Positions 12,897-36,932 of a stretch of DNA of 37,360 bases are shown piece by piece. The DNA lies in assembly GCA_945906715.1 (NCBI GenBank), contig CAMDRK010000002.1:1-37360 (forward strand). Reading direction: 5' to 3'. The notes beneath the pieces are model-generated. The model made no database searches, was not told the DNA's origin, and worked only from the letters and a program-made list of their open reading frames with translations. Position 1 is the first letter of the stretch. Every line of letters begins with the position of its first letter. This stretch comes from Nitrospira lenta (GTDB taxonomy: Bacteria > Nitrospirota > Nitrospiria > Nitrospirales > Nitrospiraceae). The translations under genes and the position numbers were made by a program.

Positions 12897-13033
12897 TTGT
12901 TCCTTTGGTCTATCCGGTCTATCTCGTCTATCTGGTCTGTCTCGTCCGGGAGCGCCAGATAGACATGATAGACCTGACAGACCAGACAGACCCACTAGAT
13001 CAGACAGACCAGATAGACCAGACAGACCAGATG
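12897..13033. repeat. Nonamer inverted-repeat element A5
   Basis: ggtctatccggtctatctcgtctatctggtctgtctcgtccgg ... agacagaccagatagaccagacagaccagatg; right end runs into the valS start codon. Confidence 0.9.
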
Positions 13034-23746: not shown

Positions 23747-24715
23747 TCAGCGCCCGAGACTCAGATGAACGATCGTCCCTTTTCCCCCGCTGGCCCAGCC
23801 CTCCGACCTAGTAGGGAACGAAAGGCCGAATAACGAGGCCTTTGCGATTGCACCCTGCTCAGTCCAGGTAAAACCGCTGTCAGTGCTCCGATAGACCATA
23901 CCCCGTTCCCCCACAATCCATCCGGTCTGGGGATCGGTAAAACGCACTTTCAAGAGATCTGTCAGCTTCGTACAGGTGCTGGTGCAGGGCAACGTGCGAT
24001 CGATCCATTGAAGGCCGCCATTGCTTGTCTGAAAGATGGCTCCGGCGTTTCCAACGGCCCATCCAGTCGACGTATCGGAAAAAAACACATCGAACAACGT
24101 GACAGCCCCCTGAGTCTCCTGAGGAGTCCAGGTGATTCCGCCGTCGTCCGTCATCAAGACAGTCCCTACTGCCCCAACCACCGTCCCGTGCTGTGCGGTA
24201 AGAAATTGAATGCCGTAGAGCGCTGCGCTCGTCTTGCTCGCTTGATCGACCCAGTGCAGTCCACCATCCTTCGTATGGAGAATGGTTCCGTTGCCACCGA
24301 CCACCCACCCCTCGCTGGGCGACACAAACGAGAGACCGTAGAACGCGACCTGGGTATCGGCGAGTTGTGAGGACCAGGTCTCTCCCCCATCTTGGCTCCT
24401 ACGAATCGTCCCATTGGCTCCAATAGCCCACCCCAGCTTCTCATTGAGAAAGAATACTCCCGAGAGGCTTGCAGTGGTGCCACTGACGACCATCTTCCAC
24501 TTCTTCCCGCCATCGATCGTCTTCACAATGGTACCGCCGGACCCCACCGCCCAGCCCAGCAGAGGCGTATGAAAATAGAGCCCCATCAGGATAGCTTCCG
24601 TATGGCTCACTTGAGGGGTAATCGTCAGAGGAGAGTCAGCAGGCCAGGAAGGAGTGATGCATAGCTGCGCTGCCAGCGCCGCGACCGCAAGGTATCCAGG
24701 CAATCCGTATCTCAC
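23747..24715 (-). CDS. YCF48/BNR-like beta-propeller protein, probably secreted
   Basis: 322 aa with about seven GWxVGxxGTIxxTxDGGxxW repeats; N-terminal signal-like segment. Confidence 0.85.
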   Translation of the reverse strand: MRYGLPGYLAVAALAAQLCITPSWPADSPLTITPQVSHTEAILMGLYFHTPLLGWAVGSGGTIVKTIDGGKKWKMVVSGTTASLSGVFFLNEKLGWAIGANGTIRRSQDGGETWSSQLADTQVAFYGLSFVSPSEGWVVGGNGTILHTKDGGLHWVDQASKTSAALYGIQFLTAQHGTVVGAVGTVLMTDDGGITWTPQETQGAVTLFDVFFSDTSTGWAVGNAGAIFQTSNGGLQWIDRTLPCTSTCTKLTDLLKVRFTDPQTGWIVGERGMVYRSTDSGFTWTEQGAIAKASLFGLSFPTRSEGWASGGKGTIVHLSLGR

Positions 24716-26403
24716 TGGGCAGTATCGGCGTCGGGGCGAATGCTTTTGAAGTAGCCTTGATCAGGCATACCCTTGGCAAGAATGGTAAACGTGCCCGCTT
24801 CCAACGTCAGCCACTTCTTCGGAGTGCAACAAGTATCGTCTGGCTGGACATCCCAGGAGCCGCGCCGCACGATCAGCGGTCCCGTCGCGAGCTCGTTAAA
24901 GAATTCATTGCGCTTCCCAATACCATAGAGATTCCGATGGGGCACTCGCACAACGATCTCCGTATCCGTCCAGGACATCACCTGCGCCGCGACATTGCTG
25001 AACAGCACTTCCGTACGCGAGACATTCTCGTCCATCTCGATCTCCCGTCGCTTGTAGGCCCCCTGGTTGAGGCCTAAGTAGGCATGCTCGGCTGTTTTCA
25101 AAAACACGCCGAAGCCAGACCCTTTAATGGTGATCAGCTCATCGAGCCCGCCCGATTGCGGACTGAAGGAGTCGATCTTCGGCGTCACGAGGGTAAAGAC
25201 CCCCGCCTCAGTCTTGAGAGTCTCCTTCGTCGCACAGCAGGAGCCATCCGGATTGGGCTTCGTCGCGCCTCGATAGATCACGACCGGTCCGCTCTTTGCG
25301 CTGAAGGGTACCCACACATCGATGCGATCGTCTTGCCAACGATAGATGACAGCGCGGACCCCTCCGATATCGACTCGATTCTCACCCGTATTGAAATCGG
25401 TAAAGGCGTAGGGAGTCGCTCCACTTTCCGAATAGAATCCGAAATGTTCACCGCTGATTCTGAGCAGCGTACCGATGGGAGCCGCAGGAGGAATCATCGC
25501 CGTCGCCTTTGGCACATGAACCGCAAAAGTCCCGACCATTCGCTCACGCCCTTGCATCGTCAGAACGATCGGTCCGGTCTCCGCATCCATCGGAAGATGT
25601 ACGACGATGGCGCTCTCCGACCACTGGGCAATGGTGGCAGGGTGGCCACCGAACGTCACCTTGTCACCGGCTCCCTTCTCAGAACCGAAGCCTTGGCCAA
25701 AAAAAACGACCTTCGTGCCGACCGGCCCGCTCACCGGATCGACGCGAATGCTCGGAATCAATTTCAGCGGCACAGCGTTACTCACTGTGTACTGGACCGG
25801 TGCGCAACAAGACCCGTCCGGCAAGGGATCGGACGATGCCAATCGAACCATCACATCCCCCGATGCGGCATTCGCAGGAACCTCGACTTCGATAATGTCG
25901 TCTTTCCAGCGACGCGGCCTGACGAGTACGCCCCCGATCATTACATCGTTGACGCCGAACATCGTATTGGGATCGCGAGAACCAGCCGTGACGCCAAAAT
26001 GCGATCCAGCAATCTGCACCGTATGACCTGCCTGGATCTCTGTCGGCGTTACTGAAGTAATCGTCGGCTGAACCACTGTCAATGTCCCGACAACCATCTT
26101 CTTCTTCCCAGCCATGATTTCAACGGGACCGGATTGCGCTTGAAATGGAACCTTCACCTCGATCAAGTCTGACTCCCACCGCTGAATCAACGCAGGGAAC
26201 CCACCCACAGTCACGCGATTGACCTGCACGGATTTAAATGCCCCGAACCCCTTCCCACCGATTGATACAGTAGCGCCCGGTACCGTCGTTGCCGGATGAA
26301 GCTCGAGCGCAGAAGGAGTGGCCGCAAGCACCACGGCGCTCAAACTGGCCCACAACGATAGCGTACCCACGCCGGTTATAAATGCATTCTTTATCTGGTT
26401 CAT
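24712..26403 (-). CDS. IPT/TIG-domain secreted protein
   Basis: Repeated P-x-S/A-G-x3-G...V.IxGxGFG modules; signal peptide MNQIKNAFITGVGTLSLWASLSAVVLAATPSA; 4-nt overlap with the YCF48-like gene. Confidence 0.8.
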   Translation of the reverse strand: MNQIKNAFITGVGTLSLWASLSAVVLAATPSALELHPATTVPGATVSIGGKGFGAFKSVQVNRVTVGGFPALIQRWESDLIEVKVPFQAQSGPVEIMAGKKKMVVGTLTVVQPTITSVTPTEIQAGHTVQIAGSHFGVTAGSRDPNTMFGVNDVMIGGVLVRPRRWKDDIIEVEVPANAASGDVMVRLASSDPLPDGSCCAPVQYTVSNAVPLKLIPSIRVDPVSGPVGTKVVFFGQGFGSEKGAGDKVTFGGHPATIAQWSESAIVVHLPMDAETGPIVLTMQGRERMVGTFAVHVPKATAMIPPAAPIGTLLRISGEHFGFYSESGATPYAFTDFNTGENRVDIGGVRAVIYRWQDDRIDVWVPFSAKSGPVVIYRGATKPNPDGSCCATKETLKTEAGVFTLVTPKIDSFSPQSGGLDELITIKGSGFGVFLKTAEHAYLGLNQGAYKRREIEMDENVSRTEVLFSNVAAQVMSWTDTEIVVRVPHRNLYGIGKRNEFFNELATGPLIVRRGSWDVQPDDTCCTPKKWLTLEAGTFTILAKGMPDQGYFKSIRPDADTAQ

Positions 26404-26498
26404 TTGGTTGATTTGGTCTATTTGGTTCATTTGCTTGATTTAGTTCATCTGGTTGGTCGGTTCAACCAAATAAACAAGACAACCCAAATAAACGAGTT
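26390..26498. repeat. Nonamer inverted-repeat element A7 (A/T-rich variant)
   Basis: tttatctggttcatttggttgatttggtctatttggttcat ... ttcaaccaaataaacaagacaacccaaataaacgag. Confidence 0.8.
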
Positions 26499-28412: not shown

Positions 28413-28545
28413 GAAGTTCTGAGTTCTGAGTTCTGGGTTAGATGCGGATACGTGATGGGGGAAGCGGAATTAGGAATGTGGAATGTGGAATTGAAGTGTT
28501 CGGATGTTCGAACCCCATCCTTCAGCCTTCAGCCTTCAGCCTACT
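28413..28545. repeat. Composite of half-elements from several heptamer families
   Basis: agttctgagttctgagttctgggtt (B); ggaattaggaatgtggaatgtggaattg (F); ccttcagccttcagccttcagcc (E). Confidence 0.75.
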
Positions 28546-29199
28546 GGACCATTCGGCCACGATCGCGAGACTTGCGCTGGTGCCAATTCGATCCGCACCG
28601 GCCTCCAGCATGGCCAGCGTGGTCTTCCAGTCCCGAATTCCTCCGGAAGCTTTCACCTTGGCGCGACCAGCCACGGCATCTTTCATCAGCTTCACATCTC
28701 CAACCGTCGCACCGGCGGCGCCGAACCCGGTCGAGGTCTTCACGTAGTCGGCCCCCGCCTCCACGACTAATTGACAGGCTGTACGCTTCTCTTGATCGGT
28801 CAGATAGCAGGTTTCGAGTATGACTTTATGTTCAACACCCGTGGTCGCCTTCACCACTTCAGCAATGTCCTGTCGCACATACTCTCGATCGCCCGACTTC
28901 AGCCGGCTCACATTCATGACCATATCCAGCACCCGCGCGCCGCGCGCGACCGCTTCAACCGCTTCGGCAACTTTGGTTTTCGTCGTGTGACCGCCAAGGG
29001 GAAACCCGATCGGAATGCCGACCAGGATTGGGGTGCCAGCGACAGCTGCCACCGCATCATCCACATAGCAAGGCGGGACAAAAATTACGGAAAACCCAAA
29101 CTCCTTCGCCTCCTGGCATAGCCGCAGGACATCCATTTTTGTCGCGTCCGGACGGAGCACCGTGTGGTCTATAAGATTCGGCACATTCCATTCAGACAT
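28522..29199 (-). CDS. deoC: Deoxyribose-phosphate aldolase
   Basis: 225 aa. NLIDHTVLRPDATKMDVLRLCQEA; VKTSTGFGAAGATVGDVKLM; KASGGIRDWKTTLAMLEAGADRIGTS. Confidence 0.95.
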   Translation of the reverse strand: MSEWNVPNLIDHTVLRPDATKMDVLRLCQEAKEFGFSVIFVPPCYVDDAVAAVAGTPILVGIPIGFPLGGHTTKTKVAEAVEAVARGARVLDMVMNVSRLKSGDREYVRQDIAEVVKATTGVEHKVILETCYLTDQEKRTACQLVVEAGADYVKTSTGFGAAGATVGDVKLMKDAVAGRAKVKASGGIRDWKTTLAMLEAGADRIGTSASLAIVAEWSSRLKAEG

Positions 29200-30929: not shown

Positions 30930-33560
30930 CTACCGCTCCAACATCCGTTCGACCAGTCCAAAGACCTTTTCCAACGCACTATCCAACCTTGCCGGATCCT
31001 TCCCCCCAGCCTGGGCCATCTCAGGCCGGCCACCGCCGGTGCCGCCGACTTCCGCCGCCATCTCCTTAATAATGTCGCCCGCTTTCAGCCGGGCAATCAG
31101 ATCTTTTGTGACGACGACCAGTAACGAAACCTTGCCATCGTTGGCGGCCCCGAGGGCCACGACACCGCTCTTCAACTTATCCCGCAACTGATCGGCCAGC
31201 GCCCGCATGCCGTTCACATCCAGGCCATCGGTGCGTTGCACATGCACCTGAACGCCGGCGATGGTTTTCGCCATGGCCTCGGCGGCTGAGCCGCCGGCCA
31301 TTTTCAATTTCACCTCTTCCAGCTCACGTTCCTTGTCTTTCAGCTGCGTCATAACTTTGCGTGTTTTGGCGACCAGCTCGGACTGGCCGACCTTGAGCAG
31401 ATTCGAAAGTTCTCGAATGTCAGTATCCAACTGCTTCATGTGCGCAAGCGCCCCGCTGCCAGTCTGGGCTTCAATACGGCGGACACCAGCCGCGACGCCG
31501 GTCTCAGAGACCAGCCTGAACAAGCCGATGTCCCCTGTCTGCCGGCAGTGCGTTCCACCACAGAGTTCCTTGCTGAAAGACTCGACCGTGACAACCCGCA
31601 CCTGCTCACCGTACTTATCGCCAAAGAAGGCCAGCGCGCCCTTGGCCACCGCATCCTGAATGCTCATCACCTCGGTCGCGACCCGCTCGTTCTTCCGCAC
31701 CTCGTTGTTCACGACAGTTTCAATCTCATCCACATCACGGGAGGACAGCGGTCTGAAATGGGCAAAATCGAAGCGCAAGCGATTCGGCCCAACCAGTGAC
31801 CCATACTGTTTGACGTGAGGGCCCAGCAAATCGCGTAACGCCGCATGGAGCAAGTGGGTAGCCGTGTGGTTTCGCTGAGCATCCTGCCGCGTCGTGGCAT
31901 TGACGGTCATGTGCAGGGCCTCACCCTCGCGAATCCGCCCTTTCGTCACGGTCCCCTTGTGCAAAATCACCGTCGGCGCAGGCCTCGTGGTTTCCGTAAT
32001 CTCCGCCTGCCCCTCATGGCCCAGTAACAGGCCCCGATCGCCGACCTGCCCGCCGCCTTCTGCGTAGAACGGTGTCACATCCAGAACGATTTCAACTTCA
32101 TCGCCTTCCGCCGCTTCCTTGACCAACCGGTCGCCTTTCAAAATCGCCTGTACGAGACTCTCGCTCTCCAGGCGGTCGTAGCCGATAAACTTCGTTGTCC
32201 CGATACGCCCGGCCAGTTCCGCAACCGCAGGCCGAGCAATCTCCTGTACAAACCCGCCGGTTTTACGCGCGCGATTCCTCTGTTCATCAATGGCCTGATC
32301 GAACCCCGCCTCATCGAGCGTCATCCCCTGCTCGCGGCAAGCCTCTCCCATCAGGTCCATCGGAAACCCGTAGGTGTCGTAGAGCTTGAACACATCTGAA
32401 CCGGTGAGAACCTTGTTCCCAGTCGAGCGGGCCTTCGCAATCATCTCATTGAGAATCGGCAACCCTTGATCGAGCGTAGCGATAAACCGCTCCTCTTCGC
32501 CTCTCGTCGCCTCTGCAATCGTCGCGGCTGCGCTTCGGACTTCTGAATAGACCCCGGCCATCTGACTCACGACCGTCTCCGTCAATCCATAGAGGAAAGG
32601 CTCGACGATGCCCAGCAGCCGCCCATGCCGCGCAGCCCGGCGCAGAATCCGCCGCAGCACATAACCGCGTCCTTCATTCGAGGGTAAGACACCATCTGTC
32701 ATCAAGAACGTGATTGCGCGAAGATGGTCTGCCACCACACGCATCGACCGATCGGTCTGGTCTTGCTCCCCATACCGAACTCCTGCCCTCGCTGCGACGG
32801 CGGTCAGCAACGGCGTGAACACATCGCTGTCATAGTTGCTGTAGACTCCTTGCGCCACTGCCGCCAGCCGTTCCAATCCCATACCCGTATCGATGCTGGG
32901 CTTAGGCAAGGGATGCAACGTCCCAGCTGCATCCCGATTGAACTGCATGAAGACAAGGTTCCAAATCTCGATGACCCGATCGCCCTCGCCGTTCGGCCGA
33001 TCGTCGCCCGGCACCGACGGTCCCTGGTCGAAGTGCAGCTCCGAGCAGGGCCCACAGGGTCCGGTATCGCCCATCTGCCAGAAATTATCCTTCTCGCCGC
33101 ACCGCACGATACGCGAGGGGGAAACCCCGACCTTCTTCCACAGTTCGTCCGCCTCGTCATCATCGCGAAAGATCGTCACCCACATCCGATCCTTTGCCAA
33201 ACCAACCGTCTGGGTCAAAAACTCCCAACCGAACTGAATGGCGTCTTTCTTAAAGTAGTCACCGAAGGAGAAGTTCCCCAACATTTCAAAGAACGTATGG
33301 TGGCGTCTGGTGTAGCCGACATTCTCCAGGTCGTTGTGCTTGCCCCCTGCACGGAGACACTTCTGCACGGTGACCGCCCGTTTGTAACCGCGCGTTTCCT
33401 CGCCGAGGAATATCCGCTTAAATTGGTTCATCCCGGCATTGGTGAAGAGCAACGTAGGATCGGCTTGAGGAATCAAGGCGGAACTTGGCACGGCCTGGTG
33501 GCCATGCTGTTCGAAATATCGAATGAAGGCTTGTCGCAATTCTTCAGTGCTGTTTTTCAT
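30930..33560 (-). CDS. alaS: Alanyl-tRNA synthetase
   Basis: 876 aa. RQAFIRYFEQHGHQAVPSSALIPQADPTLLFTNAGMNQFK; HTATHLLHAALR; CGGTHCRQTGDIG. Confidence 0.97.
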   Translation of the reverse strand: MKNSTEELRQAFIRYFEQHGHQAVPSSALIPQADPTLLFTNAGMNQFKRIFLGEETRGYKRAVTVQKCLRAGGKHNDLENVGYTRRHHTFFEMLGNFSFGDYFKKDAIQFGWEFLTQTVGLAKDRMWVTIFRDDDEADELWKKVGVSPSRIVRCGEKDNFWQMGDTGPCGPCSELHFDQGPSVPGDDRPNGEGDRVIEIWNLVFMQFNRDAAGTLHPLPKPSIDTGMGLERLAAVAQGVYSNYDSDVFTPLLTAVAARAGVRYGEQDQTDRSMRVVADHLRAITFLMTDGVLPSNEGRGYVLRRILRRAARHGRLLGIVEPFLYGLTETVVSQMAGVYSEVRSAAATIAEATRGEEERFIATLDQGLPILNEMIAKARSTGNKVLTGSDVFKLYDTYGFPMDLMGEACREQGMTLDEAGFDQAIDEQRNRARKTGGFVQEIARPAVAELAGRIGTTKFIGYDRLESESLVQAILKGDRLVKEAAEGDEVEIVLDVTPFYAEGGGQVGDRGLLLGHEGQAEITETTRPAPTVILHKGTVTKGRIREGEALHMTVNATTRQDAQRNHTATHLLHAALRDLLGPHVKQYGSLVGPNRLRFDFAHFRPLSSRDVDEIETVVNNEVRKNERVATEVMSIQDAVAKGALAFFGDKYGEQVRVVTVESFSKELCGGTHCRQTGDIGLFRLVSETGVAAGVRRIEAQTGSGALAHMKQLDTDIRELSNLLKVGQSELVAKTRKVMTQLKDKERELEEVKLKMAGGSAAEAMAKTIAGVQVHVQRTDGLDVNGMRALADQLRDKLKSGVVALGAANDGKVSLLVVVTKDLIARLKAGDIIKEMAAEVGGTGGGRPEMAQAGGKDPARLDSALEKVFGLVERMLER

Positions 33561-33582: not shown

Positions 33583-33703
33583 AAAGCTGAAGGTTGAAGG
33601 TTGAAGGTCGGAATTTAAAGTTCCGAACACTTCGGTCTCCAGCATCGAGACCTCTTTCAATCCCGACAATTCAAAATTCCTCATTGATCATTCCGCATTC
33701 CCA
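33583..33703. repeat. Heptamer half-elements (E and F families) between alaS and recX
   Basis: gctgaaggttgaaggttgaaggtcggaattt ... gacaattcaaaattcctcattgatcattccgcattccc. Confidence 0.7.
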
Positions 33704-34250
33704 ATGCCGCCTCAATGGTGTCTTCGTCAAATCCTCGTTGGCTCAACAGTCTCGCTACACGGCCAAGCGTCTGTGCCGAACTGGTCCGTCCAGCCGTTGC
33801 GATTACCTGCATGGCCAAGTCCTGTTCACTCACCTTGCGGTAGGCGGCTCGTAGCGTCGCCTGCACAATGTTTTCAGGACAACCGGTGGCGAGCAGCTCT
33901 TCTTGCAGGCGCGCACGTCCCATCGGCATGCGGGCGAGTCGCCGATCGGCCCACCGCGCAGCAAACGCAACATCGTCGAGATATCGCAACGATTTCAGCC
34001 GTCGAACTGTGGCTCTTGTCTGCGCGGGAGAGGCCCCCTTGGCCGCAAGCAATTGTTCGATCTGAGTCGTCGTGCGATCGCTGCGGGCCAGCGCGCGCAC
34101 CGCGAGTTGCAACCACCGATCCTGCTCAACACCCGTGAAGCGTGAAACGCGAGACGAGGGAGAGTTCGAGGTTCGAGGTTCGAGGTTTTCGGAACTTCGA
34201 ACCCGGAACTTCGAACTTCGCGTTCCGCCCGTCTCACTCGTTCTGCTCAT
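33681..34250 (-). CDS. recX: Regulatory protein RecX with repeat-derived N-terminal segment
   Basis: WLQLAVRALARSDRTTTQIEQLLAAKG, FAARWADRRLARMPMGRARLQEELLATG; directly downstream of recA. N-terminal ~40 aa encoded by heptamer repeats. Confidence 0.85.
   Translation of the reverse strand: MSRTSETGGTRSSKFRVRSSENLEPRTSNSPSSRVSRFTGVEQDRWLQLAVRALARSDRTTTQIEQLLAAKGASPAQTRATVRRLKSLRYLDDVAFAARWADRRLARMPMGRARLQEELLATGCPENIVQATLRAAYRKVSEQDLAMQVIATAGRTSSAQTLGRVARLLSQRGFDEDTIEAALGMRNDQ
34137..34221. repeat. Heptamer inverted-repeat element C2 with adjacent D-type half-unit, inside the recX ORF
   Basis: gaagcgtgaaacgcgagacg; then agttcgaggttcgaggttcgaggttttcggaacttcgaacccggaacttcgaacttcg. Confidence 0.85.
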
Positions 34251-34275
34251 CCCGCCTGTCGCGCGTGGCTGCTGA

Positions 34276-35370
34276 TCAGGCTCCCACCTTGTGCGGCCGC
34301 CGCTCCTCGCGTTTCTCTTCAGTCTTCTTTTCGTCTTTCACCGGCGCGGCAGAGGGCTTTTCAGGCGTATGACCCGGCAAAGCGGCCAAGTCGCGCAGCT
34401 TCCCTTCAATCTCACGCGCCAACGGCTGATTGCTGAAGAGAAAATCGCGCACCGCGTCACGTCCCTGCCCAAGCCGCTCGCCCTGATAGGAGTACCAGGC
34501 CCCGGACTTCTCAACCACTTTCTTTTCGACCCCGAGATCGACTAACTCGCCGGTCTTTGAAATCCCCTGCGCGAACATGATGTCGAACTCCGCCTGCTTG
34601 AACGGAGGCGCCATCTTGTTTTTCACGACCTTCACACGCACGCGGCTGCCGGTCACCTCCTGCCCTTCCTTGATCGACTCGATGCGCCGGATATCCAGCC
34701 GCACGGACGAGTAGAACTTGAGCGCGTTGCCGCCGGTGGTCGTCTCCGGGTTACCAAACATGACGCCGATCTTCATGCGAATCTGATTGATGAAGATCAG
34801 GGTCGTCTGCGACTTGGAGATGGCCGCCGTCAACTTTCGAAGCGCCTGCGACATGAGTCGCGCTTGCAGCCCCATATGGGCATCGCCCATTTCACCTTCA
34901 ATTTCAGCTCTCGGCACGAGCGCTGCGACAGAGTCCACCACAATGACATCGATCGCCCCGCTCCGGACGAGCGTCTCGGCAATTTCCAACGCCTGTTCGC
35001 CGGTGTCAGGCTGCGACACCAATAGATCGTCCACCTGCACACCCAGCTTCTTGGCATAGGTCAAATCCAGCGCATGCTCCGCATCGATAAAAGCCGCGGT
35101 GCCACCGGCCTTCTGTGCCTCCGCAATCACATGCAGGGTCAACGTCGTCTTGCCCGAAGACTCGGGACCAAAGATCTCGCATACCCGGCCGCGGGGAAGC
35201 CCGCCGACGCCCAGAGCAATATCGAGTCCGAGGGATCCGGTCGAAATCGCCGGAATATCCACCCGGGCATCGGCTCCCCCCAGTTTCATAATCGCCCCCT
35301 TCCCATATTGCTTCTCAATTTGGGATAGGGCCAGATCCAGCGCACGCTTCTTGTCGTCTTTTTCAGCCAT
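34276..35370 (-). CDS. recA: Recombinase RecA
   Basis: 364 aa. [73 protein letters not shown]. Confidence 0.98.
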
Positions 35371-35465: not shown

Positions 35466-35568
35466 GAAGTTCTGAGTTCTGGGTTCTGAGTTCTGAGTTG
35501 TCCGGAACTAACTCAGAACTCAGAACTTATAACTCAGAACTCGGCGAAGCCGTCGACTCAGAACTTCT
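35466..35568. repeat. Heptamer inverted-repeat element B2
   Basis: gttctgagttctgggttctgagttctgagtt ... aactcagaactcagaacttataactcagaac ... gactcagaactt. Confidence 0.88.
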
Positions 35569-36760: not shown

Positions 36761-36932
36761 AAGAAGTTCTGAGTGCTGAGTTCTGAGTTATCTTGGAGTA
36801 AACTCAAAACGTCTCTTTCAGCATTTCGGCCAACTCATTCCACATTACTCATTCCTTCGAATCTCCCCAGTCCGCTTTTCCGGCCAACTCAAAACTCAGA
36901 ACCCAGAACTCAGAACTCAGAACTCACAACTC
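36761..36932. repeat. Heptamer inverted-repeat element B3
   Basis: agttctgagtgctgagttctgagtt ... aactcaaaactcagaacccagaactcagaactcagaactcacaactcc; ~100-nt loop. Confidence 0.85.

Follow-up and report, generated by a model that had tools for sequence, protein, structure and literature searches.

That palindromic repeats can become fused in frame to conserved proteins is already known. Rickettsia palindromic elements (RPE; Ogata et al. 2000) are joined to conserved proteins in this way (PMC2229807, PMC10969869), and in the one enzyme described the effects of fusion were judged neutral to slightly detrimental (PMC2229807). The MITE-type ERIC/RU elements of enterobacteria and Correia elements of Neisseria likewise give in-frame fusions, and they affect adjacent mRNA (PMC2229807). 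Heptamer families are known as well. Geobacter metallireducens carries class 3 heptanucleotide elements (consensus MTYCTGA, five tandem repeats, drawn as a hairpin) and a 49-copy GGGACCG heptamer family (PMC2700814). In marine Beggiatoaceae, TAACTGA heptamer arrays abut start codons and a role in translation was proposed (PMC4679880). No description of heptamer repeats in Nitrospira was found in the open literature, which does not prove that none exists.

Here we describe a Nitrospira heptamer element at the start of recX. By analogy it comes close to RPE: it is short (about 100–150 bp), dispersed in multiple copies, palindromic and able to form a hairpin, it contains open frames, and it is joined in frame to a conserved protein and apparently tolerated. 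The likeness is one of organisation: the Nitrospira element is made up of tandem heptamers in two arms, and RPE are inserted within an existing frame, whereas the Nitrospira element replaces a 5' end and supplies the start codon. ERIC/RU and Correia elements share the in-frame fusions but are bounded by defined terminal inverted repeats with target duplications (PMC2229807), features not clearly seen here; the arms of the recX element are inverted, and a clean target duplication was not recognised on inspection by eye. The Geobacter elements are also tandem heptamers dispersed between and within genes. They differ from the recX GTTCGAA family in sequence and, in the portion of the source available, are predicted regulatory sites and not protein termini (PMC2700814). 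The Beggiatoaceae arrays share the position at start codons; unlike the Nitrospira element they are direct repeats with no predicted hairpin, and their forward copies contain stop codons, which limits overlap with coding ends to ≤18 nt (PMC4679880). Judged from the sequences compared, what appears new is the replacement of a native start by a repeat that also supplies the start codon, together with the swapping of the junction between species.

The window, the whole 37,360-nt stretch analysed, is one of the 347 contigs of the draft genome G000 (2.66 Mb, 76% complete) and carries recA, recX and alaS in this order on the minus strand. RecX restrains the DNA-repair protein RecA. From ATG 34250 the recX ORF reads MSRTSETGGTRSSKFRVRSSENLEPRTSNSPSSRVSRFTG and then VEQDRWLQLAV, and its codons 1–40 are palindromic heptamer-repeat DNA. 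An earlier note on this DNA had proposed that heptamer repeats appear to be read as the RecX N-terminus. The underlying sequence observation was borne out by the ORF, by Tandem Repeats Finder arrays at 34164–34187 (GTTCGAG ×3.4, 100%) and 34192–34220 (GAACTTC), and by ~40 further copies of the element DNA in G000 (E 5e-24 to 7e-13, 77–95% identity). With so many genomic copies, the repeat observation is real and far above chance. The same note placed recX soon after recA, correctly, but gave a spacing of 26 nt where 25 nt was measured.

Features of the recX region in the window
Feature	Coordinates	Strand	Remarks
recA	34276..35370	(-)	upstream neighbour, TGA stop 25 nt ahead of recX ATG
recX ORF	33681..34250	(-)	189 aa, ATG start at 34250; RecX_HTH1 and RecX_HTH2 (Pfam)
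Predicted repeat-encoded RecX N-terminus, residues 1–40 (MSRTSETGG...SRFTG)	34131..34250	(-)	own-genome copies; without start codon before core; low pLDDT
Outer left arm (GCGACAGGCGGGATGAGCAGAACGAGTGAGACGGGCGGAACGC region)	34221..34260	(-)	includes start codon ATG 34250–34248
Inner left arm	34190..34220	(-)	GAAGTTC GAAGTTC CGGGTTC GAAGTTC (recX strand)
Inner right arm	34164..34187	(-)	CTCGAAC ×3.4 (recX strand), pairs with left arm
Outer right arm and V-type junction (CTCTCCCTCGTCTCGCGTTTCACGCTTCACGGGT, then GTTGAGCAGGATCGG)	34131..34163	(-)	
Conserved RecX core	33681..34118	(-)	codon 45 onward
Second heptamer element	33588..33634	(-)	recX stop to alaS interval
alaS	30930..33560	(-)	downstream neighbour, synteny marker; assigned by reading sequence

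The element strand folds as a long hairpin with GC-rich outer arms (-66.8 kcal/mol, z -2.84; 3 of 200 shuffles equally stable), which in the 5' coding region may lower RecX output. Comparison with plasmid and phage records gave no match to the recX element, and an element related to that of the V-type loci described below was found in 32 of 32 genus genomes. In most places the repeats respect genes and sit between them: 11% of repeat bases fall inside listed genes, on a partly provisional gene list, whereas genes make up 79% of the window. The window also holds AGTTCTG/AACTCAG heptamer palindromes at 35468–35542 and 36765–36932. These resemble, in part, the MTYCTGA hairpins of Geobacter metallireducens (PMC2700814).

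The protein behind the repeat is a conventional RecX by its three-helix repeat domains and its recA neighbourhood. Pfam assigns RecX_HTH1 to residues 48–85 (5e-11) and RecX_HTH2 to residues 92–133 (2e-10), and phmmer matches 3dfg at 2e-6. Across 22 sequences W46 is invariant, and D44, L47 and L49 are at least 90% conserved. Substitution rates indicate that the core is under purifying selection, with dN/dS of 0.22 against L002, 0.16–0.27 against L003 and L013, and 0.16–0.44 overall (L numbers denote individual loci). AlphaFold2, run with the relatives' alignment, predicts helix 1 at residues 40–56 and residues 1–39 as unstructured; block pLDDT is 46–60 over residues 1–40 and mostly >90 in the core. 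The tail is basic, Ser/Arg-rich and predicted to be disordered, with 40 residues in the window and about 13–28 in relatives. It is probably tolerated rather than useful.

We then oriented and compared 27 distinct Nitrospira-genus recX loci; recX relatives were from Nitrospira or from Nitrospiraceae/Nitrospirota MAGs. Two forms were found. In 19 loci the N-terminus is short (A-type) and the start usually lies close after recA. Seventeen of the 19 begin at codon -10 or -11 relative to the core, with sequences of the (M)SRRVTGKAAPSPDxW kind, e.g. (M)SRRVTGKAAPSPDQW; L015 begins at -7 and L005 at -6. Repeat-bearing A loci (e.g. L013, L016) carry the repeats between the recA stop and an intact start. 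Outgroup genera of the family mostly start recX 9–13 codons before the core, closely after or overlapping recA; the A form is taken as ancestral because they too start near the core. The remaining eight loci, the window included, are V-type. Here the native start is missing, and the stretch from the recA stop to recX codon 44 is repeat DNA. The other seven species share the junction seen in the window's outer right arm: repeat up to ...SR(F/I)TG or similar, then core VEQDRW or a close variant, with ATG, GTG and TTG absent between repeat and core. Gene order recA–recX–alaS is kept. With the native start lost and no start before the core, V-type recX must start inside the repeat or inside its own core.

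In 9 of 9 V loci (duplicate L080 counted) the cassette offers an ATG or GTG in frame with recX and stop-free to the core. The frame-shifted control is of limited force and no weight is put on it, since one shifted frame likewise has a start in most of the nine. L080 (G003:C11:27500-32000) is a second, V-type recA–recX–alaS locus in a genome that also has the A-type L005. It lies on a gapped scaffold, perhaps reflecting strain mixture or contamination, and was left out as an independent species.

In the window, no other ATG, GTG or TTG in frame with recX lies between ATG 34250 and recA. The earlier note had seen no good start ahead of the conserved region, and closer inspection agrees: V41 is GTT, and the first start-like codons within the core are TTG47 and GTG51. 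It had left the choice between a repeat-encoded tail and a poor internal start. The relatives favour the tail, as those without the repeat start ~10 codons upstream of the core, at a site since lost from the window, and not at an internal TTG or GTG; the condition that the note had set for refuting the tail was thus checked and came out in support of it. We propose that a dispersed palindromic Nitrospira heptamer element occupied the recA–recX junction and replaced the native recX start, which ancestrally lay ~10 codons before the core. The gene would have survived because its translation now starts from the element: from ATG 34250 in the window and, in seven other species, from an ATG or GTG of the cassette. 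This would yield a repeat-encoded disordered tail followed by an intact RecX core. The element and its copies, the loss of the ancestral start, the open frame, the lack of an alternative start before the core and the conserved core itself are documented at sequence level in draft assemblies; use of the repeat-encoded N-terminus in vivo is probable on that evidence.

ATG 34250 itself looks repeat-derived. In a matching element stretch identified by blastn, L006 has GGCGGGACGAGCAGAATGA, with ACG at the start position, where the window has GGCGGGATGAGCAGAACGA. We also considered whether the 'MSR' of the window could be the ancestral MSRR start, followed by an insertion. The likeness is probably a coincidence, because in L006, and similarly in L013, the matching element stretch lies apart from the start that the locus itself has. 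A Shine-Dalgarno-like duplex (-8.1 kcal/mol) directly abuts the ATG, which is poor spacing, and recX may therefore rely for initiation on ribosomes that terminate at recA just upstream. Reinitiation after recA is a plausible route for recX translation, and ATG 34250 is presumably the start used.

Several other readings were weighed against a start within the repeat. Translation from TTG47 or GTG51, with the element as an untranslated leader, would agree with the mostly intergenic position of the element elsewhere, and GTG51 is present in all V loci. However, codon 47 is CTG, CTA or ATG in 6 of the 9 V loci, and codon 51 differs from GTG in four A loci: L002, the nearest relative, has GTA, L005 CTG, L006 TTG and L037 GTT. 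W46 and its neighbours are conserved upstream of both codons. As neither codon is conserved as a start, and as both would delete Trp46 and cut into helix 1 (from residue 40, with RecX_HTH1 from 48), sequence and structural model together disfavour internal initiation, which we consider quite improbable. Decay of recX, with an accidental open frame through the repeat, would be compatible with the disrupted native start and with a heptamer core that is stop-free in six frames and makes open frames cheap, but the low core dN/dS, the two intact RecX domains and the retained synteny make it very unlikely. An assembly error that linked the recX core to a repeat copy of another site is conceivable in a draft with many similar genomic copies. 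Gene order is kept, however, and independent assemblies of seven other species share the right-hand sequence of the V junction, so that such a chimera would be extremely unlikely.

The V cassette might instead be a selected regulatory device, in which a hairpin and a short leader peptide, with translational coupling or heptamer number, tune or switch RecX synthesis relative to RecA. An AGGA-preceded ATG opens a leader, MLARSFVKRE..., in 5 of 6 common-cassette loci (L080 counted), and the leader stop overlaps the in-frame recX start as GTGA or ATGA. In L008, which has fewer heptamers, the same leader ATG reads directly into RecX. The hairpin of L004 is strong (z -3.2), and the cassette is more conserved than the flanking genes. 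Against this, the leader is absent from the window, L009 and L022, the L008 hairpin is unremarkable (z -1.0), the six loci are mutually non-independent and the leader ATG region itself belongs to a different dispersed repeat. We regard selection for such a device as unlikely, and retain the repeat-encoded, probably tolerated N-terminus as the preferred reading.

The distribution of V and A forms was compared with recA and recX-core trees built without V/A-specific codons. The two forms are interleaved, with at least five state changes on the recA tree and at least six on the recX tree, and a single V clade was rejected (AU p 0.006 and 2e-11 for the recA and recX-core trees, respectively). The sister loci L008 (V) and L016 (A) share 98% identity in recA, and the first 150 nt of their recX cores do not differ at all; from the recA stop to codon 44 they are unlike, despite these near-identical flanks. 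Conversely, the V cassettes of L004, L029, L008, L007 and L017 are 92–97% identical to each other, whereas their 150-nt flanks are about 73–85% identical in pairs across lineages (Fisher p 9e-4 to 8e-7, on pairs that are not independent). Given the interleaved trees and cassettes more alike than their flanks, the cassette seems to move alone. Horizontal exchange of the short V stretch is the simplest reading of these alignments, and the cassette may have spread between species through short-tract recombination. Long-lived polymorphism with strong constraint on the V cassette would also explain its similarity and keeps some small probability.

Heptamer number varies between species and sets which recX start is in frame. 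The recA–recX junction could be viewed as a swappable cassette of about 100–145 nt (repeat plus first recX codons) that moves without the flanking genes, with heptamer number deciding the RecX start or reading route. This combined proposal is unlikely; were it correct, a brake on RecA would be tuned or switched through slippage of the repeat. The left flank of the V cassette was at one point taken to be unique to recX. That was rejected, as GGAAAAACTATGTTGGCA is also part of another dispersed repeat. A dispersed repeat, (TAG)CAGGCTGCGGAAAAACTATGTTGGCACG..., occurs at L152, L167, L169, L170, L175 and L177, often just behind an apparent stop codon, and the common V cassette has part of this repeat as its left end.

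In the proposed reading a conserved DNA-repair regulator has had its start taken over by an intergenic repeat, and the sister species L008/L016 and L004/L033 preserve the states before and after. These pairs open two questions to testing: whether conserved proteins do no more than tolerate repeat-derived tails, and how ~100 nt can be swapped between two core genes that each keep their own ancestry. The case also warns that automatic start-site calls in such genomes can fall inside repeat DNA.

The element is read as protein at other sites as well. The core of the recX array in the window is stop-free in 6 of 6 frames, so that an open frame through it is cheap, and a heptamer array cycles through three frames and gives a similar peptide (KFEVxGSKFRKPRTSDLEP) in any of them. 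The RecX of L011 (L011:590-725) has a C-terminal tail, ...SKFEVLGSKFRKPRTSDLEPSS, from the recX element (91% identity over 57 nt). The element also encodes the last residues of two G000 proteins whose reading frames terminate in it, IspD (L094) and a GH3 enzyme (L102). At a C-terminus the boundary is fixed by the stop codon, so start-codon choice plays no part. The stop codon and final residues of deoC (28522–29199, minus strand) lie within a CTGAAGG heptamer array at 28519–28542.

Other starts in or beside repeats were also noted. An HlyD-type lipoprotein (L119:314-1690) has either a TTG start directly behind the element or a repeat-encoded signal-peptide n-region. In the window, the 976-aa valS ORF passes through nonamer repeats (12906–13033); its likely start is ATG 13031 (MSTPQLDKTYDPK), built by the final nonamer unit (CAGATGAGC). 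A TIG-domain protein (24712–26430, minus strand, start 26430) begins MNQIDQINQMNQIK, which is signal-peptide-like. Its N-terminus comes from nonamer repeats (26393–26454) and would be the second case of an N-terminus encoded by repeats; with a 9-nt unit, the frame does not cycle here.
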